Source: Brachionus manjavacas
Taxonomy: Eukaryota; Rotifera; Eurotatoria; Ploima; Brachionidae
DNA: 64,000 nt
Direction of reading: 5' to 3'
Assembly (NCBI GenBank): GCA_019054805.1
Contig: JAHQIY010000001.1
Location: forward strand, 3,052,501 to 3,116,500
The notes below the pieces were generated by a model. The model saw only the letters and a list, made by a program, of their open reading frames with translations. It was not told the origin of the DNA and searched no databases. Numbering within the stretch: the first letter of the stretch is position 1; every line of letters begins with the position of its first letter. The position numbers and the translations under genes are program-made. Shown piece by piece: positions 15,596 to 52,700 of this stretch.

Positions 15596-18500
15596 TTAAC
15601 CAATAATTGACGTTGTTGTACCTTGTGTATTTGTAGATATTTTTGGATTTGAAGTGAAATATTCCGATGTGGTTGTTTCTTGTCTTTGAGTCGGATTGCT
15701 GGTTACAAAAACTGTTGGTTCATCAATAATTGACGTTGTTGTACCTTGTGTATTTGTAGATATTTTTGGATTTGAAGTGAAATATTCCGATGTGGTTGTT
15801 TCTTGTCTTTGAGTCGGATTGCTGGTTACAAAAACTGTTGGTTCACCAATAATTGACGTTGTTGTACCTTGTGTATTTGTAGATATTTTTGGATTTGAAG
15901 TGAAATATTCCGATGTGGTTGTTTCTTGTCTTTGAGTCGGATTGCTGGTTACAAAAACTGTTGGTTCATCAATAATTGACGTTGTTGTACCTTGTGTATT
16001 TGTAGATATTTTTGGATTTGAAGTGAAATATTCCGATGTGGTTGTTTCTTGTCTTTGAGTCGGATTGCTGGTTACAAAAACTGTTGGTTCATCAATAATT
16101 GACGTTGTTGTACCTTGTGTATTTGTAGATATTTTTGGATTTGAAGTGAAATATTCCGATGTGGTCATTTCTTGTCTTTGAGTCGGATTGCTGGTTACAA
16201 AAACTGTTGGTTCATCAATAATTGACGTTGTTGTACCTTGTGTATTTGCAGATATTTTTGGATTTGAAGTGAAATATTCCGATGTGGTTATTTCTTGTCT
16301 TTGAGTCGGATTGTTGGTTACAAAAACTGTTGGTTCATCATTAATTGACGTTGTTGTACCTTGTGTATTTGTAGATTTTTTTGGATTTGAAGTGAAATAT
16401 TCCGATGTGTTTGTTTCTTGTCTTTGAGTCGGATTGCTGGTTACAAAAACTGTTGGTTCATCATTAATTGACGTTGTTGTACCTTGTGTATTTGTAGATT
16501 TTTTTGGATTTGAAGTGAAATATTCCGATGTGGTTGTTTCTTGTCTTTGAGTCGGATTGCTGGTTACAAAAACTGTTGGTTCATCAATAATTGACGTTGT
16601 TGTACCTTGTGTATTTGTAAATTTTTTTGGATTTGAAGTGAAATATTCCGATGTGGTTGTTTCTTGTCTTTGAGTCGGATTGCTGGTTACAAAAACTGTT
16701 GGTTCATCATTAATTGACGTTGTTGTACCTTGTGTATTTGCAGATATTTTTGGATTTGAAGTGAAATATTCCGATGTGGTTGTTTCTTGTCTTTGAGTCG
16801 GATTGTTGGTTACAAAAACTGTTGGTTCATCATTAATTGACGTTGTTGTACCTTGTGTATTTGTAGATATTTTTGGATTTGAAGTGAAATATTCCGATGT
16901 GGTTGTTTCTTGTCTTTGAGTCGGATTGCTGGTTACAAAAACTGTTGGTTCATCATTAATTGACGTTGTTGTACCTTGTGTATTTGCAGATATTTTTGGA
17001 TTTGAAGTGAAATATTCCGATGTGGTTGTTTCTTGTCTTTGAGTCGGATTGCTGGTTACAAAAACTGTTGGTTCATCATTAATTGACGTTGTTGTACCTT
17101 GTGTATTTGTAGATATTTTTGGATTTGAAGTGAAATATTCCGATGTGGTTGTTTCTTGTCTTTGAGTCGGATTGCTGGTTACAAAAACTGTTGGTTCATC
17201 ATTAATTGACGTTGTTGTACCTTGTGTATTTGCAGATATTTTTGGATTTGAAGTGAAATATTCCGATGTGGTTGTTTCTTGTCTTTGAGTCGGATTGCTG
17301 GTTACAAAAACTGTTGGTTCAACAATAATTGACGTTGTTGTTCCTTGTGTATTTGTAGATATTTTTTGGATTTGTAGTGAAATATTCCGATGTGGTTGTT
17401 TCTTGTCTTTGAGTCGGATTGCTGGTTACAAAAAATGTTGGTTCACCAATAATTGACGTTGTTGATCCTTGTGTATTTGTAGATATTTTTGGATTTGAAG
17501 TGAAATATTCCGATGTGGTTGTTTCTTGTCTTTGAGTCGGATTGTTGGTTACAAAAACTGTTGGTTCATCATTAATTGACGTTGTTGTACCTTGTGTATT
17601 TGTAGATATTTTTGGATTTGAAGTGAAATATTCCGATGTGGTTGTTTCTTGTCTTTGAGTCGGATTGCTGGTTACAAAAACTGTTGGTTCATCATTAATT
17701 GACGTTGTTGTACCTTGTGTATTTGTAGATATTTTTGGATTTGAAGTGAAATATTCCGATGTGGTTGTTTCTTGTCTTTGAGTCGGATTGCTGGTTACAA
17801 AAACTGTTGGTTCATCATTAATTGACGTTGTTGTACCTTGTGTATTTGCAGATATTTTTGGATTTGAAGTGAAATATTCCGATGTGGTTGTTTCTTGTCT
17901 TTGAGTCGGATTGCTGGTTACAAAAACTGTTGGTTCATCATTAATTGACGTTGTTGTACCTTGTGTATTTGTAGATATTTTTGGATTTGAAGTGAAATAT
18001 TCCGATGTGGTTGTTTCTTGTCTTTGAGTCGGATTGCTGGTTACAAAAACTGTTGGTTCATCATTATTTGACGTTGTTGTACCTTGTGTATTTGTAGATA
18101 TTTTTGGATTTGCAGTGAAATATTCCGATGTGGTTGTTTCTTGTCTTTGAGTCGGATTGCTGGTTACAAAAACTGTTGGTTCATCATTAATTGACGTTGT
18201 TGTACCTTGTGTATTTGCAGATATTTTTGGATTTGAAGTGAAATATTCCGATGTGGTTGTTTCTTGTCTTTGAGTCGGATTACTGGTTACAAAAACTGTT
18301 GGTTCATCATTATTTGACGTTGTTGTACCTTGTGTATTTGTAGATATTTTTGGATTTGAAGTGAAATATTCCGATGTGGTTGTTTCTTGTCTTTGAGTCG
18401 GATTGCTGGTTACAAAAACTGTTGGTTCATCAATAATTGACGTTGTTGTACCTTGTGTATTTGTAAATTTTTTGGATTTGAAGTGAAATATTCCGATGTG

Positions 18501-21500
18501 GTTGTTTCTTGTCTTTGAGTCGGATTGCTGGTTACAAAAACTGTTGGTTCATCATTAATTGACGTTGTTGTACCTTGTGTATTTGTAGATATTTTTGGAT
18601 TTGAAGTGAAATATTCCGATGTGGTTGTTTCTTGTCTTTGAGTCGGATTGCTGGTTACAAAAACTGTTGGTTCATCAATAATTGACGTTGTTGTACCTTG
18701 TGTATTTGCAGATATTTTTGGATTTGAAGTGAAATATTCCGATGTGGTTGTTTCTTGTCTTTGAGTCGGATTGCTGGTTACAAAAACTGTTGGTTCATCA
18801 TTAATTGACGTTGTTGTACCTTGTGTATTTGTAGATATTTTTGGATTTGAAGTGAAATATTCCGATGTGGTTGTTTCTTGTCTTTGAGTCGGATTGCTGG
18901 TTACAAAAACTGTTGGTTCATCATTAATTGACGTTGTTGTACCTTGTGTATTTGCAGATATTTTTGGATTTGCAGTGAAATATTCCGATGTGGTTGTTTC
19001 TTGTCTTTGAGTCGGATTGCTGGTTACAAAAACTGTTGGTTCATCATTAATTGACGTTGTTGTACCTTGTGTATTTGCAGATATTTTTGGATTTGAAGTG
19101 AAATATTCCGATGTGGTTGTTTCTTGTCTTTGAGTCGGATTGCTGGTTACAAAAACTGTTGGTTCATCATTAATTGACGTTGTTGTACCTTGTGTATTTG
19201 TAGATATTTTTGGATTTGAAGTGAAGTATTCCGATGTGGTCATTTCTTGTCTTTGAGTCGGATTGCTGGTTACAAAAACTGTTGGTTCATCAATAATTGA
19301 CGTTGTTGTACCTTGTGTATTTGTAAATTTTTTTGGATTTGAAGTGAAATATTCCGATGTGGTTGTTTCTTGTCTTTGAGTCGGATTGCTGGTTACAAAA
19401 ACTGTTGGTTCATCATTAATTGACGTTGTTGTACCTTGTGTATTTGCAGATATTTTTGGATTTGAAGTGAAATATTCCGATGTGGTTGTTTCTTGTCTTT
19501 GAGTCGGATTGTTGGTTACAAAAACTGTTGGTTCATCATTAATTGACGTTGTTGTACCTTGTGTATTTGTAGATATTTTTGGATTTGAAGTGAAATATTC
19601 CGATGTGGTTGTTTCTTGTCTTTGAGTCGGATTGCTGGTTACAAAAACTGTTGGTTCATCATTAATTGACGTTGTTGTACCTTGTGTATTTGTAGATATT
19701 TTTGGATTTGAAGTGAAATATTCCGATGTGGTTGTTTCTTGTCTTTGAGTCGGATTGCTGGTTACAAAAACTGTTGGTTCATCATTAATTGACGTTGTTG
19801 TACCTTGTGTATTTGCAGATATTTTTGGATTTGCAGTGAAATATTCCGATGTGGTTGTTTCTTGTCTTTGAGTCGGATTGCTGGTTACAAAAACTGTTGG
19901 TTCATCATTAATTGACGTTGTTGTACCTTGTGTATTTGCAGATATTTTTGGATTTGAAGTGAAATATTCCGATGTGGTTGTTTCTTGTCTTTGAGTCGGA
20001 TTGCTGGTTACAAAAACTGTTGGTTCATCATTAATTGACGTTGTTGTACCTTGTGTATTTGTAGATTTTTTTGGATTTGAAGTGAAATATTCCGATGTGG
20101 TTGTTTCTTGTCTTTGAGTCGGATTGCTGGTTACAAAAACTGTTGGTTCATCATTATTTGACGTTGTTGTACCTTGTGTATTTGTAGATATTTTTGGATT
20201 TGCAGTGAAATATTCCGATGTGGTTGTTTCTTGTCTTTGAGTCGGATTGCTGGTTACAAAAACTGTTGGTTCATCATTAATTGACGTTGTTGTACCTTGT
20301 GTATTTGCAGATATTTTTGGATTTGAAGTGAAATATTCCGATGTGGTTGTTTCTTGTCTTTGAGTCGGATTGCTGGTTACAAAAACTGTTGGTTCATCAT
20401 TATTTGACGTTGTTGTACCTTGTGTATTTGTAGATATTTTTGGATTTGAAGTGAAATATTCCGATGTGGTTGTTTCTTGTCTTTGAGTCGGATTGCTGGT
20501 TACAAAAACTGTTGGTTCATCAATAATTGACGTTGTTGTACCTTGTGTATTTGTAAATTTTTTTGGATTTGAAGTGAAATATTCCGATGTGGTTGTTTCT
20601 TGTCTTTGAGTCGGATTGCTGGTTACAAAAACTGTTGGTTCATCATTAATTGACGTTGTTGTACCTTGTGTATTTGCAGATATTTTTGGATTTGAAGTGA
20701 AATATTCCGATGTGGTTGTTTCTTGTCTTTGAGTCGGATTGTAGGTTACAATAACCGTTGGTTCATCATTAATTGACGTTGTTGTACCTTGTGTATTTGC
20801 AGATATTTTTGGATTTGAAGTGAAATATTCCGATGTGGTTGTTTCTTGTCTTTGAGTCGGATTGCTGGTTACAAAAACTGTTGGTTCATCATTAATTGAC
20901 GTTGTTGTACCTTGTGTATTTGCAGATATTTTTGGATTTGAAGTGAAATATTCCGATGTGGTTGTTTCTTGTCTTTGAGTCGGATTGCTGGTTACAAAAA
21001 CTGTTGGTTCATCATTAATTGACGTTGTTGTACCTTGTGTATTTGCAGATATTTTTGGATTTGAAGTGAAATATTCCGATGTGGTTGTTTCTTGTCTTTG
21101 AGTCGGATTGCTGGTTACAAAAACTGTTGGTTCATCATTAATTGACGTTGTTGTACCTTGTGTATTTGCAGATATTTTTGGATTTGAAGTGAAATATTCC
21201 GATGTGGTTGTTTCTTGTCTTTGAGTCGGATTGCTGGTTACAAAAACTGTTGGTTCACCAATAATTGACGTTGTTGTACCTTGTGTATTTGTAGATATTT
21301 TTGGATTTGTAGTGAAATATTCCGATGTGGTTGTTTCTTGTCTTTGAGTCGGATTGCTGGTTACAAAAACTGTTGGTTCACCAATAATTGACGTTGTTGA
21401 TCTTTGTGTATTTGTAGATATTTTTGGATTTGTAGTGAAATATTCCGATGTGGTTGTTTCTTGTCTTTGAGTCGGATTGCTGGTTACAAAAACTGTTGGT

Positions 21501-21700
21501 TCACCAATAATTGACGTTGTTGATCCTTGTGTATTTGTAGATATTTTTGGATTTGTAGTGAAATATTCCGATGTGGTTGTTTCTTGTCTTTGAGTCGGAT
21601 TGCTGGTTACAAAAACTGTTGGTTCACCAATAATTGACGTTGTTGATCCTTGTGTATTTGTAGATATTTTTGGATTTGTGGTGAAATATTCCGATGTGGT
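15596..21700 (-). repeat. 123-bp coding minisatellite, about 50 copies
   Basis: The period is 41 codons, consensus starting ETTTSEYFTSNPKISTNTQG and ending EPTVFVTSNPTQRQ. Copies differ at a few positions only (STNTQ/SANTQ, SIIDE/SINDE/SIIGE, FTS/FTT/FTA), and variants alternate in blocks, pointing to higher-order duplication and recent homogenisation. Thr+Ser content is near 40 percent, as expected of an O-glycosylated mucin domain. The oldest-looking copies (FTTNPK, SIIGE) lie at the 21.3-21.7 kb end, next to the unique region. Confidence 0.95.
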
Positions 21701-24700
21701 TGTTTCTTTTTTTTTTGCTTCAGTTGTTGTTGTTTCATTTTTTGATTTGTTTGTTTTTTTTTTTTCTGTTGTAGATAATTCTGTCGATTTTTTTATGGTT
21801 GTTTGAATAATCACCTTTGTTGTTTTTTTATTGAATCTACTGCTTTTCTTAGCTTCAGTTGTTCTTGATGTCATATCTTTATCAGACATCTTTTCTGATT
21901 CGAACTGTTTTGAAGAGGTGCTTATTTTTGTTGATGATTTTAAATCTTTGAATGTTGTTTCCTTTTTTTTCACTTCTGTCGTATCAAATAATAATTTTTG
22001 GGAAGTCAATATTGATATTTCTGTTTCTTTTTTATTTTCATCCCTATCTATATTTGTTATTACAATTTTGCAATTTTTTATATTCGTTTCCACATTAATA
22101 TTGCAAATTTCTTTTTTTATTTTTTCTTTGTTTCCATTTATTTCGCTTTCAGTCAATATTTCTATAAATTTAATTATTAATTTCTGTTTTAATTATTTTT
22201 GTTTCTACCTTCAATGCTACTATAATTGAATATAGGCTCACCAAATTTATCAGGAATTAAGAGTTGAATATTTTGTTTGTTTTTACTTATTTCGTTTCTT
22301 AATTTCAAGACGTTAAAATTTTCGATTTTTTCATTTTCGTTAAAATTTGTTAAAATTTTTGTTTTGTAACCGAAAATTGATAATTTTTCATTATTTTCAT
22401 TTTCTCTTAATTTTTAAAATGAATTTTAAATAATGTATAATATTTTTTTACTTTTGCCAAATCCCGTCTACCAAATCAAAATCAAAAATAGATTTCATTA
22501 TATTTATTATCTTTTTGTCAATGTAATTCATTATATTTTATTAAACATATTTTTATTTTTACCTTTTCCGTTAGTTCAGTTATTTCAATATTTCCAATAA
22601 AATATCTTAAAAGTGATATTTGTTCATTTGGACTTAAGGTTATTAAATCTCGGATTGATATTGATCTATTTAATATTACTTAATTCAAATATTAGCTTTT
22701 TTATTTTTTTTCCCCTTTAAAAGATTACCATATTGATCAGGGATCGTTGCTGGTCTCGTTGTTGTGTACACATCAGATATCTGTATTAAATTGCTTAAAT
22801 TCCCTTTGATAAAAGAATTAGTTTTTAATTTAATAAACCAATATTTACCTTTAAAAAAAATTGTTTTGAAATTATTTAAACAATCTCTTTTTAAAATTTG
22901 ATTTTTTTCAAGCACTAAGCATTTTACTTCAATTTGAGTTTGGTCAGGATTTTGATCACAGTTTTTAAATTCTCGAAACCTTTTGTATTTCTTTAAATAA
23001 AAAATGTTTTCCTTAATGTAATATCTTATTTACCACGGTCCATTATTAATTTGGGTTGCATCAATCCAATGTAAAGATTCTTGAATCATTATGCCACCTA
23101 TCTTTTTATTTTAATTTTATTTGAAAAATTTAATTTTTACTTTTAATTTATACCCAATACGAATCTTCGATGTTTTTTTTCGCCATGAAATCTATAAAAT
23201 TTATTAACAAGATAGGATCTTTTAAAACTAACAAATTCCAGTCATTTTTATTAGAAAATCGATAAGCTTCAAACCATGTCATAGCTGATTTTGATATAAA
23301 TAAATCATGTCCATCTCCAGTAGCTAAATAGCTCAAATTTTCTATTATAATTTCATCAATGCATTTTTTTGACTGAAATGAACTAAAGAAAATTTAATTT
23401 TTTATAGGCTTAATTTGAAAAAAACATACTAGACACTTCCATTCCTACATTTACAAATATTTTCAAAGCATTTCTGAGAATAAGGACATTCATAGTTATA
23501 TCTGCATTTCCTCTCAAATGGATCTTTTATGTTAAAAATTCAAATTAATATCAAAATTATCAATATCAATATCTAGTACTTGTTTCGAAGGCATTCCAGA
23601 ACAAAGCATTCGATTTTGCTCCAATATTGTAATTTTTTTCTGACTTTTTCTTCTCTAAATCTTAAATTATTGTTAATTAAGTGATTTTAAAAAAAATATT
23701 TTTAAATGTCGATTTTTTTCGAATTTTTACCAAAAACTGAAAAAATAAAAATACCTTTAATACAAATATAATTATGTATACTAAAACAATTGACGTTTTT
23801 CAGTCCATATTTATTCAGAGTAGCACAGTCTTCTGATAATTTTAATTTATTGCCTCCGCTTTTTGATGGCACATAGCAATCACTCCACCTTTTAAAAAAA
23901 AATTTAAAATTTATAATTTTTTGTTCAAACATTGATATTTATTTAAATACATGTATCCAGAAGAGGGAATCGATCTACCATCTAGCCAAGTCCAGTTGGT
24001 CTGAAGTGTTTCAGCCTTCGCACCGATCTTAAAAAAGAAGAAAAATGGTTAAATTAAAAAAAAATGATGAATTCAAGTACATAAAAGGATTCTGATGATC
24101 GATGGTGATCAAAAAATTTCATCGAAAAATCAAGAACAATATCCGATTCAACAATGAGTAAATTCGATCTTCTCCTCGTACAATCGATTCTCGCACTATA
24201 CCAGTTCTTTTTAAACATGGAAATGAAATAGCATTTGTTTTCGTAATCAAACCAGCCCATTGGACATCTCAAACATATCTGGTCAGCATGTGACCTTTTT
24301 TTTTAATTTTAATGAATTTTCAAGTGAATTTTAGCTGAAACCTATTCGATTAATGATCATGGATTTATTTATATTATTAAAGGTATCTACATTTTTAACT
24401 TAAATGTTTTTGGCTACTACGATTGACTAAAATCCATTTTATTTTGGTTCAACTACTCATCAAAATTACCAAAAATAAAATCATTAACATTTTGGTAAAT
24501 TTGATGAGTAATTGATTCTATTAATCTGAGTAGATCTCTTTAACATAGTTGTTTTCCCTTACCATATAGAATTTGGTGGACATGCGCATGATGATGAAAT
24601 GCAAAAGAGATTCTTTTGACATTCACTATTTAATCTACATGGTTTCCCGAAAAGATTGTTTTTGAAAAAATTAAATAAATCTTTTAAAAAAAGAGATTTA

Positions 24701-24809
24701 TTAAATTTATCTTTAAAGGAAAAATTAATTAAATACTTTGAGATGATATCTGTAGCGACAGAAGAAGAATACATAATCTAAGAGCTTTTTTTAAAATACA
24801 GTCTTTCAT
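15596..24809 (-). CDS. Secreted double C-type lectin with giant 41-aa mucin repeat array, about 2,743 aa, 15 exons
   Basis: Exons (minus): 24809-24737, 24680-24563, 24294-24081, 24027-23951, 23888-23755, 23660-23580, 23523-23430, 23382-23154, 23101-23034, 22979-22849, 22803-22729, 22678-22563, 22510-22452, 22405-22209 and 22161-15596; together 8,232 nt, all phases consistent. Exon 1 gives a signal peptide (MKDCILKKALRLCILLLSLQ). Two modules follow, each a short Cys-rich EB/EGF-like stretch (FGKPCRLNSECQK; PFERKCRYNYECPYSQKC) plus a C-type lectin domain (CPMGWFDYENKCYF...NWTWLDG; YWIGG...WIDATQINNGPW). The calcium/sugar EPN/QPD motif is not evident, so carbohydrate binding is unproven. A unique region to about residue 707 precedes about 50 Thr/Ser units, then a stop with no membrane anchor. 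Two 1-nt indels, near 18468 and 17365, put 1.1 kb out of frame with a stop at 18410; they cancel each other. Confidence 0.75.
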
Positions 24810-32132: not shown

Positions 32133-35100
32133 TTAATAATTTAATAAAGATATAGATAAAAAAGAAATTAAAAATGTTGAACTGAACATATATGTTTTAC
32201 TTGCTTTACCATTTTCATTCGATGCCGTTAAATCGAGAACTAAAATAAAAATCAAAAAATTGAAATTCCTTATTCAAAAAATATTCACCTGAATAGTTTT
32301 CCGACACTTGAATTCTAAATCCTTTATTTTCAGCAGTTTTCTGAAATTCGTTTTCTTTGGCCCGAAGTTTTTCAAAAATCTCTTGCGCAAAAGCTTGGGT
32401 ACTCTGAATTCCATCAAAGTCTTTATTTATTTCAATGTCTATATAATATTCAGTTCCATTTCTAAATATGATTTTTAAAAATCTAAATTTGGAATACTGA
32501 AATTTTAATTTTACTGGGTGGAATACAAAACTGAATCCTCTCCTGTAACATTTTTAATTTGAATTTCTAATTCAGAAAAATCCATATCAGCTATAAGCAA
32601 AATTCTTCTATTAATTCTCTGCAATATGAAAATCCGCTCCAATCTAATTTTTCTTCTTCCAATGGGATTTGAAACCATGCTACTACTAGATAAAAACTCG
32701 AAAGTTCCTAAAGCTGTTGTACTATTAAATCCCTTATCAGGAGTCGTCGGTGTTTGATCAATTACTTTAAAAAAAATAAAGATAAAGAATAAAAAAATAA
32801 AATAAGAAATTAAATATTCACCGGAATAGTTTTCAGAGAATGATTTTAATAAAAAATGATTTTAATTTTCATGATTTTAAATTTAAAATATTATTCCGAT
32901 TAAGGCTAAATTTATTAAAAAAATCAAATTTTCAAAATTTAAAGTTTATTGGCCAAATGATTAAAAAGTTAATAATTTAATAAAGATATAGATAAAAAAG
33001 AAATTAAAAATGTTGAACTGAACATTTTTGAAACCATGCTACTACTAGATAAAAACTCGAAAGTTCCTAAAGCTGTTGTACTATTAAATCCCTTATCAGG
33101 AGTCGTCGGTGTTTGATCAATTACTTTAAAAAAAATAAAGATAAAGAATAAAAAAATAAAATAAGAAATTAAATATTCACCGGAATAGTTTTCAGAGACC
33201 TCAATCGTAAATCCGACAGTTGCAGCAGTTTCCTGAAATTCACTTTCGTTGGCCTGAAGATCTGCAAAAATCTCTTTAGCGACGCCTTCAACAGTCTGCA
33301 ATCCATCAAAAACTCTATTTACTTCAGCATCGATTAGATATTCATTTCCCAATCTTATAATTAAAGAATAAAATAAAAAATTTATTTAATTAAAATTTAC
33401 TTTCTCGAAGTAAGTATTGTATCCTGTCCTATCACACTCTTAATTTTACTATCTAATTCAGGATAAAGTTTCCCTTCAATTAGCAATATACGAGCATTTA
33501 ATTGCTGTAATTTAAAAATTCCCTTAAGTTTTATCTTTCTAATGCCTATTGGATTTGAAACGATACTGTCTCTTGTAATTGTAGTTGAAATTGATTCTGA
33601 ATTTGGGGAACTAGCAGTGGTAGTTGTACTTGAATCTGAATTTGGGGAACTAGCAGTGGTAGTTGTACTTGATTCTGTATTTGAGGAACTAGAAGTGGTA
33701 GTTGTACTTGATTCTGAATTTAAGGAACTTGCAGTGGTAGTTGTACTTGATTCTGAATTTGGGGAACTAGCAGTGGTAGTTGTACTTGATTCTGTATTTG
33801 AGGAACTAGAAGTGGTAGTTGTACTTGATTGTGAATTTAAGGAACTTGCAGTGGTAGTTGTACTTGATTCTGAATTTGGGGAACTAGCAGTGGTAGTTGT
33901 ACTTGAATCAGAATTTGGGGAACTAGCAGTGGTGGTTGTACTTGATTCTGAATTTAAGGAACTTGCAGTGGTAGTTGTACTTGATTCTGAATTTAAGGAA
34001 CTAGCAGTGGTAGTTGTACTTGATTCTGTATTTGAGGAACTAGAAGTGGTAGTTGTACTTGATTCTGAATTTAAGGAACTTGCAGTGGTAGTTGTACTTG
34101 ATTCTGAATTTGGGGAACTAGCAGTGGTAGTTGTACTTGAATCAGAATTTGGGGAACTAGCAGTGGTGGTTGTACTTGATTCTGAATTTAAGGAACTTGC
34201 AGTGGTAGTTGTACTTGATTCTGTATTTGAGGAACTAGAAGTGGTAGTTGTACTTGATTCTGAATTTAAGGAACTTGCAGTGGTAGTTGTACTTGATTCT
34301 GAATTTGGGGAACTAGCAGTGGTAGTTGTACTTGATTCTGTATTTGAGGAACTAGAAGTGGTAGTTGTACTTGATTCTGAATTTAAGGAACTTGCAGTGG
34401 TAGTTGTACTTGATTCTGAATTTAAGGAACTTGCAGTGGTAGTTGTACTTGATTCTGAATTTGGGGAACTAGCAGTGGTAGTTGTACTTGAATCAGAATT
34501 TGGGGAACTAGCAGTGGTGGTTGTACTTGATTCTGAATTTAAAGAACTTGCAGTGGTAGTTGTACTTGATTCTGTATTTGAGGAACTAGAAGTGGTAGTT
34601 GTACTTGATTCTGAATTTAAGGAACTTGCAGTGGTAGTTGTACTTGATTCTGAATTTGGGGAACTAGCAGTGGTAGTTGTACTTGAATCAGAATTTGGGG
34701 AACTAGCAGTGGTGGTTGTACTTGATTCTGAATTTAAAGAACTTGCAGTGGTAGTTGTACTTGATTCTGTATTTGAGGAACTAGAAGTGGTAGTTGTACT
34801 TGATTCTGAATTTAAGGAACTTGCAGTGGTAGTTGTACTTGATTCTGAATTTGGGGAACTAGCAGTGGTAGTTGTACTTGAATCAGAATTTGGGGAACTA
34901 GCAGTGGTGGTTGTACTTGATTCTGAATTTAAAGAACTTGCAGTGGTAGTTGTACTTGATTCTGTATTTGAGGAACTAGAAGTGGTAGTTGTACTTGATT
35001 CTGAATTTAAGGAACTTGCAGTGGTAGTTGTACTTGATTCTGAATTTGGGGAACTAGCAGTGGTAGTTGTACTTGATTCTGAATTTAAGGAACTTGCAGT

Positions 35101-35652
35101 GGTAGTTGTACTTGAATCAGAATTTGGGGAACTAGCAGTGGTAGTTGTACTTGATTCTGAATTTGGGGAACTAGCAGTGGTAGTTGTACTTGATTCTGAA
35201 TTTAAGGAACTTGCAGTGGTAGTTGTACTTGATTCTGAATTTGGGGAACTAGCAGTGGTAGTTGTACTTGAATCAGAATTTGGGGAACTAGCAGTGGTAG
35301 TTGTACTTGATTCTGAATTTGGGGAACTAGCAGTGGTAGTTGTACTTGATTCTGAATTTGGGGAACTAGCAGTGGTAGTTGTACTTGATTCTGTATTTGA
35401 GGAACTAGAAGTGGTAGTTGTACTTGATTCTGAATTTGCGGAACTTGCAGTGGTAGTTGTACTTGAATCTGAATTTGGGGAACTAGCAGTGGTAGTTGTA
35501 CTTGATTCTGAATTTAAGGAACTTGTAGTGGTGGTTGTACTTGAATCAGAATTTGGGGAACTAGCAGTGGCGGTTGTACTTGAATCAGAATTTGCGGAAC
35601 TAGCTAGCAATAGTAATAAAAAAATTACCATTTTTTTTTTAATAGTTATCAT
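32133..35652 (-). CDS. GPI-anchored mucin with 13-aa repeats; 859-aa and 984-aa forms predicted
   Basis: Exon 1 (35652-33401) encodes a signal peptide (MVIFLLLLLASSANS), about 50 units of 13 residues (consensus SSPNSESSTTTTA), and the first half of a globular module (SNPIGIRKIKLKGIFKLQQL). Exon 2 (33353-33181) completes the module (VNRVFDGLQTVEGVAKEIFA...GFTIEVSENYS), which is vaguely SEA-like but unassigned. Short form: exon 33123-32969 ends directly in the hydrophobic tail MFSSTFLISFLSISLLNY. Long form: exons 32764-32515, 32461-32289 and 32239-32133 add a second module (SNPIGRRKIRLERIFILQRI...GFRIQVSENYS) before the same tail. Both sum to whole codons (860 and 985). The C-terminus has small residues then a hydrophobic run with no charged tail, as expected of a GPI-attachment signal. 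Confidence 0.7.
32839..33199. repeat. Partial tandem duplication of the mucin 3' end
   Basis: About 180 bp ending near 33026 repeats about 180 bp ending near 32190 (offset 836 bp). About 170 bp at 33030-33199 repeats 32671-32840 (offset 359 bp). The simplest reading is duplication of an 836-bp unit followed by a 477-bp deletion in one copy, leaving microhomology TTTGAAACC at the join. The two copies look nearly identical, so the event is recent or an assembly artefact. Confidence 0.85.
33595..35590 (-). repeat. 39-bp coding minisatellite, about 50 copies, with five-unit higher-order repeat
   Basis: The unit encodes SS(P/L/S)N(S/T)(E/D)SSTTTT(A/S). The order SLNSE, SSNTE, SLNSE, SPNSD, SPNSE recurs several times, giving a 195-bp higher-order unit. 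The unit lacks stops in one antisense frame, so a 753-codon Val/Glu-rich ORF lies on the plus strand; I treat that as a shadow. Confidence 0.95.
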
Positions 35653-37440
35653 TTTTGTTATTAAATTTCTTGTTATTTTTTCAATTTTTTATCATTTTTT
35701 ATACTTATCCGAATTTGTTATTTCGTATTCAATATTTTTTTTTTTTGGTTTTTTTTTTTCAAAATCATTGAATTGGAAAGAGTGTTTCAATTTTTTTATT
35801 TAACAACAATTGATTTTTTTCTTTCTTTTTTTTACATTTGTTGGATTTTATTCGTGTTTTAATTAATATTTTAATTTTTTAATTTTTTCAGTATTTCTTT
35901 TTTTTTTTTATATTCAATGAATATTATCAGCTCTTGCATAAACATTTTTTTAAGATAGTTTATTTTTTCTTGTTTAGGTTGTCGCTCATTTAATCTTAAT
36001 GTGAGTATTTTTGAAAACCCTTTTTTCTATATTCGCTTCCTTCTTTTTTTTGACCAAGTCTTAAGGTGGGTGTTTTCATGGCTATTATAATTTTTTTAGT
36101 TCCATCAGTCACCTTCATGTATACCGAAAATCATTTTACCCATTTTCACTGAAATCTTTTTCGAGTCTTCTAAATATTCTTGATTTTTTTTTTAAATCTT
36201 CCTGAAAGCTTTGTCTTTTTTCGTTTTTAGACCCTAATCGTTTACTTCTAATTTAAGAAAGTATAACGAGAATCCTTTAATCCCATTAAATTAATTTCAA
36301 TTCATTCATTTATTTATTAAATAAAGAGAAGCATTTTTTGAACAAAAGAATAGAACTTTCTCATATTTTATTTAAAAAAAATTTCAGTATTTTTAAACAA
36401 ACCTCTTTTTTTATTTGATCCTTTTTTAATTCAATTTAAAATAGAGTTCGAGAACAAAATATTTCTATAAATAAAAAAAGTACACCTTTTTTAGAAGTGT
36501 TTTCAAATTGAGGATTAAATAACAATAATGAAAAGTTTAAAAAAAAATTTAATTTTAAATAATTTATATAGAATTTATTACATTTAAATCTGTTTTGAAT
36601 CATTCAATACAACAGTTTTCAAATAATTAAATTGCATTGTTTATTAGAAGGGCTCTAAAAGTATTTTTTATTAACAGATTAGTAAAAATTTTTTAAAAAA
36701 GTATTTCCATATGTTTTCTTAAAGATTTTGTTAACGAAAGAAGAGCTATAAAAACAATAGCTTTTTTAAATTTAAGCGTGAAATTTTTTTTTAAATGCAT
36801 CACTAATTTCCAAAAAGAATATTAAGATGACTCAAAAATGAGCATGCAAAAATCAAATGCATATAAGGTTTTTTGAGCAAAATAATAAATTAACATTCCA
36901 TTCATTACCTCTCAATAATTTTTATAATCAAAATTTAAGATAAAAGAAATAAAAATTACATACTTCTTCTATTGAACGAACGATGAAAATTTGAACTTAT
37001 AGCTAGAGAATTACATAGTTTTGATAGACAAGTTAGAGAATTAAAAACATTTTTCATTGACTTCGAAAAATTTTAAGTAGTTTTTGTGGAACTTAAAAGT
37101 TTGATTAAATTTTTCAGAAACCTCTTTCAATATTAAATTGAAAGAACAGTTTCTTCATCAGTTTTTATTTCTCATCGATCATCCAAACACAGAATTAAAT
37201 TCAAGATAATTATTAATTTGATTATATTAGTTTAAAATTGATTATTTCAAAGATTTTTTTTTCCATTTTAATCTTGGAGGCAGCGGTAAAGTTCGATGCA
37301 AAAAATGTAGAAAGATATATATTTTGCTATTTTTTTGCTCCAGACTTCACCTTTTATTTTGGAATCATGAAATAAAATTTCGTTTAAAAAATTAGAAAAA
37401 ACTCAAAAAGCAATATGATCATTTAATTTTTCTTTTGATG
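35653..37440. other. A+T-rich intergenic DNA upstream of the GPI-mucin
   Basis: This is the 5' flank of the minus-strand mucin, with long T and A runs. I see no exon, repeat family or structured RNA. Confidence 0.5.
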
Positions 37441-41249: not shown

Positions 41250-43100
41250 GTTTAGTCTCTGGAGATATTCTGCCGTTGAGCTTCGGCTACACAAGCATAC
41301 GTGTATTCATCAATTGAATTAAGGCTCTCGTTATTTTCAGTTTTGGCAGCACTGGTCAGCCCGGACTTGGCTGTTGAGGTTATGTTTTTGTTGTCTTTAA
41401 TAGTAGCATCACTAGTTTGTCTGAACTCAGAAGAAGAAATCAGGCTATAATTGCCTTCAGCTTTGGCCGCACTAGTATGTCTGGATTCTGTTAATGATGT
41501 CATGACTTTTAGTGAATGTCTTGTCAACAACGGCTTTGGTCACACTGGTACGTCTGGAGTCAGTTGTTGAAGTCATCGTCTTGTTGTTTTTAATTTTAGT
41601 TTAAATGGAATGCATGGACTCAGTTCCTGAAGTCAGGTTCTGCTATTGGAAAAAGTTGTTGAATTTAGGGTTGTGAATCGACTAAGCGTTAATCGATTAA
41701 ATCGGTTAAATTTACATTCGATGAAATTTTAACTTTATCGAAAATGTCTTGTTTTTATCGATCAAAAAATCATTGTTAGAATTTTAATTTACTTAATTTG
41801 ATAAATTTTATAAATATCGAAAACTATCGAACAAATTTTGGAAAATAGTATCCCTTTGTTTTCGAATAGATAGTCGAATAGTTAAATCAATTATATTGTT
41901 CGATTTTATAAATCGATTAACCAAAAAATCTAATTCAAAAGTGCAAAAAAAATGTATTCGATATTTTTAAAAGATAAGTAATTTACGAAACCAAACAAAA
42001 CTTGAAAAATCATTTAAAAAAATTATCAAATAAGTTGCGAAATTAAATAAAAATTAAAAAATTGTTTAAAAATCTTAAAAATTATTTTTTGTTTTGCTAA
42101 AACGATTGAATTAAGCTTTATAAAAGTAAATTTTTCCAGATTTTTTGCATTCAGTCTGTTTCTTTCTTCATTTTGAATAAAGCCAGCAACAGAAAAAATA
42201 CTTTCTGCGGGAACTGAACTAGCAATTAAACAAAATAGCTCCTTAATACTACTAGTTAGTATTGGTAAATTAATATTGTAATATTTATAAAACAAAAGTG
42301 GATCTTTTAGCTCTTTTGAATCGGATTCTTTGTAAAATGTCTCGGCGTTACATTCATAAGACTTAAATTCTTGAAAAGTGCCATTTTAATTTGATAAAAA
42401 TGAAATTTTTTTAAAGTTGTTTCTTTTTTTTTAAATTAAATTCTAACTAAATAAGTTTTATAAATCAAGTCTTTATTTTTGAAATATTATTGAAACAAAT
42501 TTAACATTACTTTCCTTTATAATATTTTCATATCATTGAAGTAATAATTTTTTTCAAAAAAATGTTTCGAACATGAAGCTTGGTCGATTAAAATCGACTA
42601 ATATATTCGATATCAATATTCGATCAGTTAATTCGAATAAATAAAATAAAAATGAACTTGATCGACTAAAGAAGAAATCGATATTTAAAATTATATCGAA
42701 TATTTTTCGATATAAGTTTATCGTTACAAAAATTTATCGTTTAGTTTAAACAGTTCGATAATGATTTTTTTTTAATCGATTAGCGAATTTCCTTTCGATA
42801 ATCAACCCTAGTTGAATTCATGCTCTTGCCGTCTTCAGTATCGGCTACATCTGTATCTGAGGACCCATCTATTGTTTACATCTTCTGGTTATATTCAGCA
42901 TTGTATTCAGTATTCATTTGTATTTCGAGGCTCAACTGTCGAGAACTGATGTTTTTTATTTTTGTTTAGAGAAGCGGCACTTGTATCTAGGTACTTAGTT
43001 GAACGTTGTATGATAATTTAATGTTTCTAATTCAGATTAGAGGCTGAATTTTCGATTTGCAGTAAGTTCCGGCTTTTTTGGGTTCTAGTAGCGTTTTCGA
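41250..43100 (-). repeat. Degenerate coding-like minisatellite split by a hAT element
   Basis: Minus-strand sequence at 41252-41640 and again beyond 42811 carries imperfect tandem units of roughly 60-75 bp (plus-strand words such as ACTGGTACGTCTGGAGTCAG, GACTCAGTTCCTGAAGTCAG). A 92-codon open part reads TSAAKAEGNYS...TSAAKTENNES. It looks like a decayed Ser/Thr-rich repeat gene. The hAT element at 41666-42810 interrupts it. Confidence 0.45.
41666..42810 (-). mobile_element. hAT-family DNA transposon, 1,145 bp, with perfect 8-bp TSD
   Basis: The termini TAGGGTTGTGAATCG and CGATAATCAACCCTA are inverted over TAGGGTTG. The perfect 8-bp target-site duplication GTTGAATT occupies 41658-41665 and 42811-42818. 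The minus strand encodes the hAT C-terminal dimerisation domain at about 42380-42090 (NLPILTSSIKELFCLIASSV, then PAESIFSVAGFIQNEERNRL). The N-terminal catalytic part is missing, so it is internally deleted. Many TATCGA/ATCGAT words near both ends are probable subterminal binding repeats. Confidence 0.9.
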
Positions 43101-46123: not shown

Positions 46124-46795
46124 TAGAATTAAATAAGACTAAACTTTTAAGACTTTTGCAATTGATGCAGTTTGATTGTTCCATCTTGTTGCATCCCGAG
46201 AACTAATTTTCTAGTTGTCCTGCTTAAAATTCGCCCGCCACAAATTCGATCATCTAATCCAGAATGATACGTGTGAATGAAATTTTAAATATTACTTAAA
46301 TATTATTAAATATTGCTACATTTAAACAAGTGACTTTTATAATAAATAGTCTAAAAAAATTTTATTTTTAACTTCCTACCATAAATTGCATCCACAAGGT
46401 GTTTAATTAGATTTTGCTTGAAATTGCATTTATTTCCAAACATAAACCCAAACGACATGAAGCTGATATATATTTTTAAATATATAATTTAGCATTATTA
46501 TCATAAATTTACATATTTTATTATCACAGCAAAAAAAAAATCTTAGTTTTACTGCAACAAATAATCAAGCTATCAAAAATCGATTTTAAATGACACCATC
46601 TTCGCTAATCTTTATAATCAACTCGAACAATACTTTTTTTCCGTCTCCAACTAGTCTAAATTAAATTTAAAAAAAAAAATTTTTTTTAATTTTTTAGTTT
46701 TTTAATTTTTAATTTTAGTTTTTTAATTAAAAAAGCATTTTCAGATTATTTATTTTTTTCTAATTTAAATTTAATTTTGTTCAAAAATACTAAAA
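46124..46795. promoter_or_regulatory. 5' flank of HEATR5
   Basis: This 670-bp region lies between the mariner-type element and the HEATR5 start codon. No upstream exon is evident; the last 120 nt are T/A-rich and could be 5' untranslated sequence. No TATA or initiator call is possible in this base composition. Confidence 0.35.
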
Positions 46796-49700
46796 ATGGA
46801 TTCAAGAGCCCAATCGATAGAAAATCAATTGAAAAAAACACTGTCAGACAGCGACACCTTAGTTCTAAGCGACAGCCTACTGGAACAAATAATCGGTCAC
46901 AAAAAGCGGCCCCTGTACCTGCACGACTGGCTTCTGAGTCTGGACACAAAAATAAGCCGCATCCAAAAGTCGACGCTCAAGCAACAACAAGAAAAGCTGG
47001 TGCAGCAGCTGTTCATTTTATTCAATCAATTTCCGGGCCCATCCGTCCGCAGCCTAATCGCCAGCACAATCGCCAGCCTGTACTCGCACGGCGACTTTTT
47101 GTCGCTCTACGCCACAATAGAAAAGTGCAATGAGATACTCAAATCGAAGGACGAGACTCAGCTGCAGCAAATGGCCAAATTGTGCTCGCTGGCATGTCTC
47201 AAGCAGCTTTATCAGCAGCTGGGTCGCACTTGCGGCACGATGTACCAGGACACGTGTCAAATTTTGTTCAAGTGCATGAAAAGCGCCGAGTCGCAGCTGC
47301 GCATCGAAATAGTGCGCACGTTCGAAGCGGTCATAACGGGCCTGGCCAGCGCCGGCTCCTCCAGCCACAAGGACATATTCAAGCAGCTGAAGCCGCTGTG
47401 CCAAGACCGCAACATGAACGTGCGCTCAGCGGCCATCAAGTCGTTGTCCGAAATGATAAAGCACTGCTCGTTTTTGTATATGTCGTCGAGCTCGGCTGCT
47501 CCGTCTAATTCCGGCGTGTGCAGCGAGCTCGAGTCGAGTGTTCAGCTCGGCCTCAAGGCCTTGGACAACTCGAACTTTGACGTGCGAGTTCAAACGAGCG
47601 TTTACCTGGCTCAATTGATCTACTATGCGATTGTGAGCGCGGACAAGCAGCCGGTGAGTGGCGAAGACAAATCGCCCAGTGGCAAGCATAAACAAACGAG
47701 CCAGTGTGGCAAGCAGTTGACACAGGACAAGATCGGCAACATTTTAGCCTTGTTGGCCAACGGGTTTAACAGAGCGAGCGCGTCGTTCAGCGGCTTCAAT
47801 TTGGTGCGCAATGTGACACTGCCGAGCTCGAACAGCTCCAGCTCTCTGACCAACGAGTCGCAGCAAAGTCAAAATGCTGAAAGTCCCATGCAGCAGTCGA
47901 GCTCTGGCTCGGTTGCGAGTAGTCGCGAGATGCGCATCGGCCTGACCTATGCCTATGTGCAGCTGGCCGATTTGCTAGGCGCTACTTGGCTGCAAAAAAA
48001 TCTCACTCTATTTCTAAGTCACGTGCTCAACTTGGTCAATAACACCAGGTCAGTGCAGAGCCACTTGGACGCTGTTTACTCGCGCAAATGTGTCCAATTC
48101 ATTTTGCGCTCGATTGTGGGCGGAATGCTCAACGAAAAGGTGCAGCTACAAGCGGCCAATGAGCTCATGCATCTAATCGAGAAGCTCACTGCCACACACA
48201 ACACTCAGCACATTCTAATTTGTTCGTTGCACGAGCTAAGCTGCATTTTGAGAACGCTGAACACTTCGTGTTCGATACTTCTATCCGAAGACAACAAATT
48301 GGTCGCCAAGCTATCCAACTCGCTGTTGTATGCGCACGTAGGCGTCAAATGCATGACAGCGTGGTGCCTGCGCTCGCTGACCAATTCTCTGCCTTCGCTC
48401 ATGTCCTCTCTTCTAGACACATGCATGGACAAGTTGTCGCTGGTGCGCAATTCGTCTGACGCGCTCACAGGCTACGGCTACGCGTGCTCAGCTCTCATGG
48501 GTGCCATAAATGAGTGTCCGCTGGGCGTGCCGAGCCTCAAGCCAAAGCTGGGCTACAACATTGGCGAAGAGCTGTTGCGCAGCGCCTCCCAAAGTTCAAA
48601 TGTGAGTTTGGCCATGCAAAAGACCAACATTGGCTGGATGTTGATCGGAGCATTTATGACGGTCGGCGGAGGCCTCGTCCGCAAACACTTCACTCGAATT
48701 AGAAAATTGTGGACACTAACGCTGCCCAGTAGCTTGGAGCAAATCGAGCAGGAGAAAAAAAGGGGCGACGCGAGCACTTGGCAGCTGAGTTTGGAGAGTA
48801 GAGCGGGCGCTTTGGCAAGCATGAGCTCTTTTTTGCAAAATTGCAGCGACATGCTCGACGACGAGAGCACATGTCAAGCGTTTGTTCCGCCGGTGCAGTG
48901 TGCCATTTTGCTTCTGTGCCAATTGCCCGCCATTCTCAAGCTAAACCAATCGGTGGGCCTAAAAGCCCAGTCGGCCATGTACAGACTCAAGCTGTATCAA
49001 GTGCTGAGCCATTTGCCGACTAGACTCTACGAGACCAGTTTTGCCATGCTGCTGAGCGAACTAGTGGCCGAATTTACCATGGCCGACCAGTCCAATTCAA
49101 ATTTAGTGACGTCAATGCTTCGCTCAGTGTGCCACTCGAACGACTCCATTCTGTTCTCCAATTCGCTGCACCATGTCGAGTACAAGTCAATCGAGGACCA
49201 GTTGGCGCCGTTTTCGGCGTCCGGATGCGAAACATTCGAACATGACGTCACCTACTTGTACCAGAACACAAACACAAGCGACTCATGCCAATCGGCGCTG
49301 CCGCTCGGCGTCTCAGTCATCGACGCATCCATCCACCTATTCGGCCAAATGTATCCCAAGTGCCCCAACAAGCACAGGTTGCAAATACTGCACCATTTCA
49401 TCGATCTCATACACAAACCGACCAAGTCGAATCGTCAAGCACTGCAGATAAACATATTCACGGCCGTGTTGAGCAGCTTGAAAAATTTGGCCGAGACCAA
49501 GAGTGATTTGGGCGACGAGCCGATTCGCCGTGCCACTCTCAACCTAGTGCTGGACACACTCAGCCACTCGAACGCCATACTGAGGTGTGCGGCCGGCGAG
49601 GCGCTTGGCCGGGTTGCCCAAGTGTGCGCCGACTCTCACTTCGTGAACGAAGTGGGTCAATTTTGCTTCGAAAAGCTGCGAAACAGCCAGGAGGTGACGG

Positions 49701-52700
49701 CGCGCACCGGCTACGCTCTCGGCCTCGGCTGCCTGCATCGCTACGTGGGCTCGATGGGCGCCGGCCAGCAAATGACCACCACGGTCTCGGCCCTGTTCGC
49801 CATGGCCCAGAGTCCCAGCTCGAGCATCGTTCAAGTTTGGGCCATTCACGCGCTCTACTTGATCATTGACTCGGGCGGCTCCATGTTCCGCAATTTCATC
49901 GAGCCGTGCGTCGAATTTATTGTGCAGTCGGCGCTCAGCATTCCGCTCACCAATCGAGACGTGTTCATCGGGCTCGGCAAGCTCTTGAGCTCGCTGATCA
50001 CGTTCCTGGGTCCCGAGCTTCAGCTCGACCAGGACATATGCAGCTCGTGTTTGATCACGTGCACAGTCATGAAGCAGCATTGTGACTCGGCCATAAACGC
50101 CGAGGCCATTCAGTGTTTGCAGCAGATGCATTTGTTTGCGCCCGAGCTAATCGACTTGAAGAGTCTGGTGCCCTATCTGCTCGACTCGCTGGTCAGCAAG
50201 GATTTTGTGCTAAGAAAAGTTAGCATCAATTGTTTGAGACAGCTGTGTCAAAAAGATTCGCTTGATGTGTGCAAAATAGCCAAGGACTATGTGCGTCAAA
50301 GTCATCCGAGTGGGCTGCTGTGTCTCATTAGTGATCGTGGTCTAGAGTTTTTGCTCTTCAAAATGCTCGACATTGAAACAAATCCCAAGCTTGTCAAGGA
50401 CATACACGACATCTTGTACAGCCTTTTGACCAGCACTCTAAACGAGATTACCCTAAAGGATTGGCTGTTTCTATGCAAAGACATTGCCATCAGCTCTGAA
50501 GGTTGGTCTAAAAAATTGCTTTTTCTTTTTAACTTCTGATTTCTTCTTGATATTTTTTATTGCGGTGTTAGCAAACAAACTATTTAAATGGAGTCATTTG
50601 ACTTTTAAAGTAAATCTTTGACGTTGTGACATTTTTTCAACCTATTTTTACAGCTTACTGGACCAGGTGGTGATTTGGTCTCGCTCCTAGTAACTCTACT
50701 ACTTCACATTCATCTTCACCAATTACAGAACACAATAAAATGTATTAATCCAGGAGCAGTCTGGATTTAGAAAACACCGGTGAACATCAGATAATCTTTT
50801 CTTTTTAATTCAAAAAATTGTGGAGTCATTAGAAAAAAAGAGTTTGTTGCCTGTTTTTGATATTTCCTAAGCCTTTGATAGGGTTTGGCTTGAAGGTTTA
50901 CTTTTTAAATTGATTAAAATGAATCCACCTCCTTACTTAACTAATTGGATTGGATTCTTTTTAGACTCTAGGACTTTTAAGACTCAAGGTAAATGTGAAT
51001 GAACACCTGAGCGAAGAATACCAAATATCCGCAGGTCTCCTTCAAGGCTCATTAATTAGTCCTCTTTTGTTTAGTATATATATTAATGACATCCCCAAAA
51101 AGAAATAAAACTATTTGCTTTTCGCAGATGATCTAGTAGCATTCTTCATCTATAACAAAAAGGGAAACCTAGAAAATAAGATAAATAAATACACAACGAA
51201 CTAGAACAATCGCTTATTAAATGGAAAATGAAGATATCAGTTGAAAAGACGTTTTCAGTAGTCTTTTCAAAGTCTAAAAAAATGAGTGATAATCTTAACT
51301 TAAAAATTTATGGAAACAGAATGGTGAGCCAAAATGAAATCAAGTTTTGTGGTATAAATTTGATTCTAAGTAATACTTAAGAACGTTGCAATAAAAGGCT
51401 AAATATTATTAAGATACTGTCATACAAAAAATTGGGTCTTAATCAAAATACACTAGGAAATTTATTAGTCGGATCAATTTTAGACTATTCTTTTCCTTGC
51501 TTGAATTCATTTTCAGAAAATAATATCAAAAAACTACAAGCAATTCAGAATCCTAAATAAAGTAAAAGTCAACTTTTGTTTCGCTATAAATTTTAAAAAC
51601 ATTTGGCAAAATGGTAGTTATGGTAGAAACTCTTTTATGTAACGAGCTAAGTAAAGCCATTTTTTTCTTTTCGCCTTGATATACAATTAGAGTACAACCT
51701 TTTTCTTCATCAAAAATACTATATTGGCTCTTTTTTACTTTTAATTTTTTTTATTTGTTTGCTATACCGAGCTAGAGCTCCTTCAGATTAAAAAAAGGAA
51801 ATTAAAATTAAATAAGATAAAATAGCTTAGAATAGAAGAAAATTAAAATAAGATAAATTGAAAAAAAGAGTTACAGGATACAAATTTTTAAATTTTTGAT
51901 TATTCAGGGAAAAAATAAGAAATTAGGTAGCAATTACACAGTGGAGTCGGGTATTCGAGATATCTTGACTCGAAAACTGCTTTATATTCTTCAACCAGTT
52001 TGACAACTAATGGAACAGAGTTTTTTAGACCATCCCTAAGATATCTCTCACTCAACTCAAAAATTCGATTGGACACGGTTAGTAATTTAGGTTTATTTAA
52101 GGCCTCTTAGCATTTTTCCCCTTATATTTTTCCCTTTTTTTTTACCCTTCTTTATTTTTTTTTGGGCGTTGTTGCATAAATCATAATTAAAAAGAGTCAA
52201 AATTTGAATTAAAGTTTTATTTTTAAAAAAGAGGCATTTAAATGAAAAATAATAATTAAAAAAAAAAGTTACCAAATAACATTAAATACAAAAACGTCAA
52301 TCTCAATTGTTGGCCATGTCTTCCATTGTGCAAACCGTGGTTTGGTGGACTCGATTAAATTTGTTGTTCAACAACTTAAGATTGAAATGTCACAGAATTT
52401 GAACTATTTTTACTTATTTAATATTTTAACAACTTTTTAAAAGTAGATTTTTTTACTTAATTTTTCTTATGTTTTGTACACATCTAAAAACTTAATTTAA
52501 TTTTTCTAATCTTTATGTTTATGAGGCTTTATTCATTCAAATAAATAAGTAAATAAATTAAATGGAAAAATTAGTTTTTTTCTATCAATTAAAGCGTGAG
52601 CATTAAAGTAAATTTTTAGTTTAATTAATTAAAATTAATTTTATAATCTTTATTTTTTAATGGGATTAAATTATTTAATATTATTCAGAGGGAAAAATGC

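Follow-up and report, generated by a model that had tools for sequence, protein, structure and literature searches.

C-type lectin-like domains (CTLDs) stand beside a small Cys-rich module and a glycosylated repeat region of variable length in vertebrate proteins whose stalks are mucin-like or of the proteoglycan kind (group XIV receptors, lecticans). In rotifers of the genus Brachionus, the secretory C-type lectins (CTLs) have one or two consecutive carbohydrate-recognition domains (CRDs; two in a few of them), and in some an EGF-like Cys-rich domain precedes the CRD (PMC8878817). In a pair of bdelloid CTLs, two CRDs at the N terminus precede a long stretch that has no homology, and one CTL of A. 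ricciae has a long Thr/Ser-rich region (PMC8878817). Near-identical tandem repeats are known from the mmr-a and mmr-b genes, where they are kept alike by concerted evolution (PMC2746195, PMC3495898). Here we describe a gene of Brachionus manjavacas in which a predicted head of two lectin modules is spliced to a mucin-type array, and its paralogs, in which the same predicted head is followed by other tails. The gene lies in a 64-kb stretch, called the window below (G000:C1:3052501-3116500 in a 114.17-Mb, 61-contig genome; gene coordinates are window positions). A 20-base vasa guide-RNA target of B. manjavacas (PMC10395877) has a single match in this genome, an exact one, in a search that allowed up to 2 mismatches; this agrees with the species, although a sister species may carry the same 20 bases. 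In literature of partial coverage, no architecture of C-type lectin, EB module and mucin was found described. The parts were already known; the new points are their arrangement and the fact that members of a single gene family carry different tails on the same head.

Architecture of the lectin-mucin gene

The gene runs on the minus strand (24809→15596), where 15 exons are spliced in phase by 14 GT..AG introns of 45-94 bases, with the one exception of intron 2 (268 bases). We consider the predicted gene real. In order, the protein has a signal peptide (recognized by eye), a first EB module (EB1, Cys 39-71), CTLD1 (residues ~74-203), a 27-residue spacer exon, EB2 (239-271), CTLD2 (~272-406), a linker that ends at ~600, a Lys/Thr-rich run-in, and the array, which begins at residue 698; the spliced protein before the array has 697 residues. 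The exons are as follows, with comparisons to a paralog on contig C11 (L037) that is described in the next section.

24737..24809, minus strand: exon 1, start codon and predicted signal peptide MKDCILKKALRLCILLLSLQISSQ; exit phase 1
24563..24680, minus strand: exon 2, most of EB module 1 (Cys 39-58), PF01683; exit phase 2; 118 nt in both paralogs
24081..24294, minus strand: exon 3, end of EB1 and first part of CTLD1, PF00059; exit phase 0
23951..24027, minus strand: exon 4, middle of CTLD1 (NWTWLDG); exit phase 2; 20/25 residues same as L037
23755..23888, minus strand: exon 5, end of CTLD1; exit phase 1
23580..23660, minus strand: exon 6, short spacer (DLEKKK..ALFWNAFE); exit phase 1; conserved in L037
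23430..23523, minus strand: exon 7, EB module 2, the second EB stretch; exit phase 2
23154..23382, minus strand: exon 8, end of EB2 and first part of the divergent CTLD2; exit phase 0; 229 nt in both paralogs
23034..23101, minus strand: exon 9, middle of CTLD2; exit phase 2
22849..22979, minus strand: exon 10, end of CTLD2; exit phase 1
22729..22803, minus strand: exon 11, start of linker; exit phase 1; 75 nt in both paralogs
22563..22648, minus strand: exon 12, linker; exit phase 0; 86 nt in both paralogs
22452..22510, minus strand: exon 13, 59 nt, IINIMKSIFDFDLVDGIWQ; exit phase 2; homologous 59-nt exon in L037
22209..22405, minus strand: exon 14, linker; exit phase 1; 197 nt vs 194 in L037
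15596..22161, minus strand: exon 15, end of linker (Cys pair), Lys/Thr-rich run-in, mucin array, stop codon TAA at 15598-15596

Exon 1 of L037 likewise has 73 nt and a signal-peptide-like start. The spacer, exon 6, is identical to its counterpart in 10 of 27 residues (81 vs 78 nt), and the start of exon 15 aligns with L037 at 39.6% identity over 53 codons. A 16-nt exon 13 of an earlier model was replaced by the 59-nt exon conserved in L037. Intron 2 (24295-24562, minus strand), the sole long one, holds a long inverted repeat, ACTCATCAAATTTACCAAAA / TTTTGGTAATTTTGATGAGT, that by eye is like a miniature transposon.

In Pfam scans of the pre-array protein, CTLD1 matches PF00059 (E=1.6e-10, residues 92-203, one stretch at E<=0.01), the score for the whole pre-array protein being 42.1 bits against a curated cut-off of 22.6, and it also matches CTLDs in the PDB, with E down to 3.6e-15. 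EB is PF01683 (E=1.8e-8; 34.8 bits against a cut-off of 24.3), with two stretches at E<=0.01, the best at residues 35-66. The six-Cys EB pattern occurs twice, at Cys 39, 45, 51, 56, 58 and 71 in EB1 and at 239, 245, 251, 256, 258 and 271 in EB2. The EB-CTLD module looks like an internal duplication, because exons 2-5 and 7-10 match in exit phase (2-0-2-1) and are similar in length (118/94, 214/229, 77/68 and 134/131).

CTLD2 is visible only by profile comparison. Taken alone it matches no Pfam family at E<=10, and two paralog CTLD2s match none at E<=1; in the whole pre-array protein a second weak Lectin_C stretch is counted at E<=10. Its best PDB sequence match is a CTLD at E=0.19, followed by an unrelated protein at 0.61. 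When a set of three CTLD2 sequences was aligned by hhalign to a set of six CTLDs, E was 2.7e-11 (for a single comparison) over 115 columns. A search of the PDB with the CTLD2 profile placed CTLD proteins in six of eight rows at E<=1, the CRDs of langerin first (E=0.0077), and beta-xylosidase (0.24) in the remaining two. The exon phases are the same as those of CTLD1. CTLD2, as predicted by these comparisons, is a divergent C-type lectin-like domain. It has three Cys (370, 383, 396) and lacks the first Cys of the usual outer disulfide. The linker that follows (~290 residues) holds no known domain, since nothing exceeds a Pfam cut-off; the best matches below it are DUF3216 here (E=0.017) and DUF6287 in L037 (E=0.24).

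Sugar-binding C-type lectins are recognized by an EPN- or QPD-type tripeptide and by WND. The usual tripeptides are absent from CTLD1 in an alignment to CLEC4A, where EPS is replaced by VPS and WND by LKN, and the paralogs also differ there, with LDD at the WND place in L037 and LSA in a second paralog, L036. Because of these replacements, canonical Ca2+-dependent sugar binding is not predicted.

All three genes have signal-peptide-like starts by eye. The maximum of the KD19 hydrophobicity after residue 25 is 1.39 in the head and 0.18 in the first 400 array residues. The protein is probably secreted.

The first-pass annotation, made from the letters of the window, had proposed much of this architecture. 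Its 15-exon in-phase gene from 24809 to 15596 is borne out by the 14 GT..AG introns and by the exon lengths and alignment of L037. The signal peptide and secretion agree with inspection by eye and with the lack of any other strongly hydrophobic span in the head and the first 400 array residues, and the unique linker, put at ~300 residues, and the missing sugar-binding tripeptide were also found as described. Where two Cys-rich plus C-type lectin modules had been named, Pfam recovers both EB modules and CTLD1 and fails to recover CTLD2.

Paralogs with the same head

Matches to the EB module in the genome led to L037 and L036, and tblastn with the head protein finds L037 exon by exon, its pieces being found without a model. 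In the full exon chain of L037, all 14 exit phases and 11 of the 14 exon lengths are the same as in the window gene. Since the splice sites of L037 were hand-picked with this gene's model in view, the agreement in phase does not count independently; the exon lengths and the alignment are the better evidence. L037 has two long introns (1,729 and 1,263 bases). Over 520 head codons the two proteins are 52.5% identical, with 63.5% in EB1+CTLD1, 56.9% in EB2+CTLD2, and 35.5% in the linker. The nonsynonymous and synonymous divergences (dN and dS) are 0.211 and 1.57 for EB1+CTLD1 and 0.307 and 1.78 for EB2+CTLD2, dS being near saturation. The linker has a dN of 0.54, and dS over all three parts is 1.4-1.8. 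At such dS, the dN values (0.21 and 0.31 for the lectin modules, 0.54 for the linker) show the lectin modules to be under purifying selection relative to L037, and the linker to be less constrained.

The exon chain of L037 also leads into a Thr-rich array, which argues that lectin and repeat exons form one gene. The array there consists of a 42-bp Thr/Pro unit (TTAPPVVTTAPPGV, 14 aa) and extends over 10.8 kb, from C11:1817020 to ~1827846 (L037-L039). It is followed by ~150 unique residues in frame with the last units and then by a stop; the window gene is without such an end. This C-terminal region has no Pfam match at E<=1, and a remnant of it in the window was ruled out (best tblastn E=6.6). 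L036, on contig C12, has EB-CTLD-EB-CTLD at 39-54% identity by piece, and its tail of ~100 residues, of a ~10-aa STTATSTTMA type, ends in a stop. More distant double-CTLD genes with Thr/Ser stretches occur at L027, where the stretch is shorter, and at L023.

The general picture that emerges is of a predicted lectin head that is common to the paralogs and of predicted mucin tails that are unrelated in unit sequence, the units being 41 aa here, 14 aa in L037-L039 and ~10 aa in L036. The tails may well have replaced one another, rather than having been added separately to the heads. Mucin tails are known to evolve fast, and the loss of homology makes their evolution hard to follow. In this small animal, at least three paralogs have an alignable shared head and unrelated tails, with lengths from ~100 to ~3,600 residues (the upper figure provided that the assembly's frame breaks are errors), and tail replacement can therefore be dated and tested. 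The family is also a named set of candidates for rotifer mucus, adhesive or surface-coat proteins, and CRISPR knock-out has been published for B. manjavacas (PMC10395877).

Three paralogs is a lower bound. The EB search of the genome gave 22 matches, of which one is the gene's own exon 7 (C1:3075929-3076015, window 23429-23515), six fall within the fetched loci L035-L037, and 15 lie outside them. The EB-CTLD-EB-CTLD head was present in two of these three loci, L036 and L037, and L035 gave no match. The CTLD search gave 25 matches, covered by 16 fetched regions; it misses split domains, as the window gene, L036 and L037 are not among them. None of the 16 regions holds a Ser/Thr array like the present one (at least 3 copies, period at least 12, score at least 100). 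A 60-residue stretch with S+T of at least 0.36 occurs in four of them (L018, L020, L023, L033), and a 9-aa repeat with S+T 0.32 is present in L020. In L018-L019 (G000:C3:5060550-5075246), 11 CTLD matches are clustered on one strand, with a Thr/Ser-rich stretch (L018 61-336) downstream of the lowest of them. L023 (G000:C12:2860500-2870000, minus strand) appears by eye to be a large gene with a signal-peptide-like start, a CTLD, an EB-like module and a second CTLD, after which come seemingly repeated ~150-residue domains with Thr/Pro linkers between them.

The array, its reading frame and its surroundings

The array and the two units that disturb its frame are as follows.

15596..21706, minus strand: mucin-type array, 50 units of 123 bp, consensus ETTTSEYFTSNPKISTNTQGTTTSINDEPTVFVTSNPTQRQ
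18387..18508, minus strand: unit 27, 122 bp, one-base frame break (one A of an A-run missing, ~18473)
17279..17402, minus strand: unit 36, 124 bp, one extra A (~17362), which restores the unit frame

The tandem-repeat call spans 15604-21708 (period 123, 49.6 copies, 97% match). Forty-seven units have 123 bp and encode 41 aa, one has 122, one has 124, and the last is cut by the TAA. The 47 full units comprise 22 distinct sequences with 21 variable sites. In composition they have 39.7% S+T, 7.3% P, no Cys and one N-sequon; the pre-array protein has seven N-sequons. A 500-base piece of the array had 15 matches in the 114-Mb genome, all inside its own array, at the search's sensitivity. The distinct changes among units are 16 nonsynonymous and 6 synonymous, where 266 and 88 are possible, and the array thus gives no sign of amino-acid constraint.

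Between the two compensating indels ~1.1 kb is out of the unit frame, and read literally the open reading frame (ORF) stops at 18410, residue 1795, after ~26 units. Unit 27 is otherwise identical to units 10, 20 and 42; unit 36, besides its extra A, has two substitutions relative to the units closest to it. The L037-L038 array has seven frame breaks, in two clusters. No break is needed in the upstream 14 exons of either gene. On the simplest reading the breaks are likely homopolymer errors or errors of sequencing or assembly in repeats. An array of ~2,000 residues, likewise the likely case, holds only if both indels are errors.

As in mucins, the repeats are tandem and Thr/Ser-rich, and they make one open frame only if the two indels are errors. 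Pfam scans of the pre-array protein found no vWD, C8, TIL, CK or TSP-1; the first four mark gel-forming mucins, and there is no Cys in the 47 units. Nor is there the C-terminal transmembrane or glycosylphosphatidylinositol (GPI) segment of a membrane mucin, as the array terminates in TAA at 15596. A membrane anchor further downstream was rejected, the next gene seeming by eye to start with its own signal peptide; splicing past the TAA to further exons may occur. That next gene (minus strand, from 15363 downwards) would begin 233 bases past the stop. For a later ORF on the same strand beyond 15363, all Pfam matches are below cut-off (WZC_N, E=0.0048; Cadherin, E=0.19).

The first-pass annotation was right in counting ~50 near-identical units (50, at 97% match); its ~2,000-residue array is not one open frame as assembled, and it made no mention of the two breaks. 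Its description of a giant homogenized mucin joined to a lectin in one protein keeps the joining, head and array being one gene, and is weakened as to size by the frame breaks in the assembly. The downstream membrane anchor that it named as evidence against a soluble protein did not appear, the array ending in TAA before a seemingly separate gene.

Elsewhere in the window, a second mucin-like gene (33397-35688, minus strand) opens with what looks like a signal peptide and includes ~52 near-identical Ser/Thr units of 13 aa (S+T 0.72); two exact pieces adjoining its array have no Pfam match at E<=0.01. ORFs at 32.2-33.4 kb have stretches in common, as if partly duplicated. A HEAT-repeat ORF of 1,254 codons (46775-50539, plus strand) is 52% GC (54% in 48-50 kb), in a window whose GC per 2 kb is otherwise 0.21-0.35 outside 46-50 kb. 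An AT-richer ORF (56336-57673, plus strand) matches Laa1/Sip1/HEATR5 at E=5.5e-53, and the two ORFs may form one HEATR5-type gene. A hAT transposase C-terminal dimerization region lies at 42026-42385 (minus strand, E=1.8e-9). Scanning the window with Rfam (gathering threshold) and with ARAGORN gave no match.

Proposed role and known systems

We propose, with a probability of about 0.62, that the protein is secreted and serves as a structural glycoprotein in a surface layer or a secretion of the rotifer, such as mucus, glycocalyx or a gland product. The array, if O-glycosylated, would form a stiff, hydrated brush, and the Cys-rich lectin-fold head, without the Ca2+/sugar tripeptides, would dock the molecule to a matrix or particle through a protein or unusual glycan contact. 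In the tail, bulk Thr/Ser content and length would matter and sequence would not, and unequal crossing-over would therefore be free to expand, homogenize and replace it. The head-plus-mucin part of the proposal is supported by paralogs with Thr-rich tails of their own. Several points weigh against it. O-glycosylation is predicted from composition, its sole basis, and the array has less Pro (7%) than is usual in classical mucins. Two frame breaks stand in the array as assembled; if real, they would leave a tail about half as long, still anchorless, and neither this array nor that of L037-L038, with its seven breaks, is cleanly open. The absence of a sign of amino-acid constraint fits a free tail, and it fits a decaying one as well.

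A special case that overlaps the structural proposal is a temporary-adhesion protein of the foot (pedal) glands, whose CTLD head would bind matrix and whose glycosylated Thr-rich repeats would be the glue. Among the adhesive-organ proteins of the flatworm Minona ileanae, one (Mile-ap1) has a CTL domain and one has Thr-rich repeats that are unconserved between species (PMC6745481), and a conserved head with changing repeats is what this rotifer family presents. The pre-array protein, however, is without the vWD, C8, TIL and TSP-1 domains of flatworm adhesive proteins, and we consider a pedal-gland glue unlikely, though worth keeping in view. Rather unlikely too is a soluble defense lectin that binds microbes and is released to the gut or surface, with the mucin as spacer. 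Secretory CTLs are the largest group of secretory lectins in Brachionus (25 in B. calyciflorus, 17 in B. plicatilis; PMC8878817), but here the sugar tripeptides are absent and unconserved among paralogs, and CTLD2 is strongly diverged.

If the frame breaks are real, the array or the whole gene could be on its way out, as the unconstrained array with its two breaks would allow. Decay is improbable given that the 14 GT..AG junctions are intact, that the head is under purifying selection relative to L037, that breaks are confined to the arrays in both genes, and that unit 27, apart from a missing A in an A-run, is the same as three intact units, which is how a homopolymer error would look. A role in egg coat, mating or self-recognition, with rapid array turnover making surfaces species-specific, finds a precedent in the mate recognition protein of the species group, which is secreted and has homogenized tandem repeats, and the same authors named a C-type lectin family gene as a potential male receptor (PMC2746195, PMC3495898). 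By description the mmr genes, intronless and with 87-92-codon repeats, are a misfit, and we hold the role to be very improbable. The same low standing goes to the broader view that the double-lectin-head family, its mucin tails separately arisen, is a fast-evolving recognition coat (mate, clone, egg), in which unequal crossing-over would turn the tail over and alter the glycan surface while the head keeps the coat docked. That lectin exons and array are two separate genes wrongly joined is scarcely credible and was rejected on the paralog evidence, L037 having the same exon chain into another Thr-rich array within the same exon and L036, as far as it was modelled, having head and Thr/Ser tail in the same order.

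In comparison with the structural glycoprotein proposed here, vertebrate group XIV receptors and lecticans differ in having a membrane anchor or a hyaluronan-binding domain, EGF/CCP modules and another order of parts. The rotifer secretory CTLs are like it in being secreted and belong in part to the same genus, but the Thr/Ser region of the A. ricciae CTL is N-terminal, whereas the one described here is C-terminal (PMC8878817). In the main text of that paper 'mucin' and 'EB module' occur 0 times, and the parts of it covered here hold no description of a conserved head with differing tails.

The mmr-a and mmr-b genes come from the same species group and share a signal peptide and near-identical tandem repeats with the present gene (PMC2746195, PMC3495898). 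They are set apart, by description, by mainly helical repeats of 87-92 codons, by being intronless and by having no lectin head; membership of the mmr mate-recognition family was rejected on this basis, a comparison of descriptions and not of sequences, the window gene having 15 exons, a 41-codon repeat and a lectin head (PMC2746195). The flatworm proteins Mlig-ap1/ap2 and Mile-ap1/ap2 resemble the rotifer protein in being secreted, with a CTL domain in ap1 and species-variable Thr-rich repeats in ap2 (PMC6745481). They differ in having vWD, C8, TIL, EGF or TSP-1 domains, none of which was found here. Moreover, the CTL domain and the Thr-rich repeats reside in separate proteins in the flatworms, whereas in the rotifer they are parts of one (PMC6745481).

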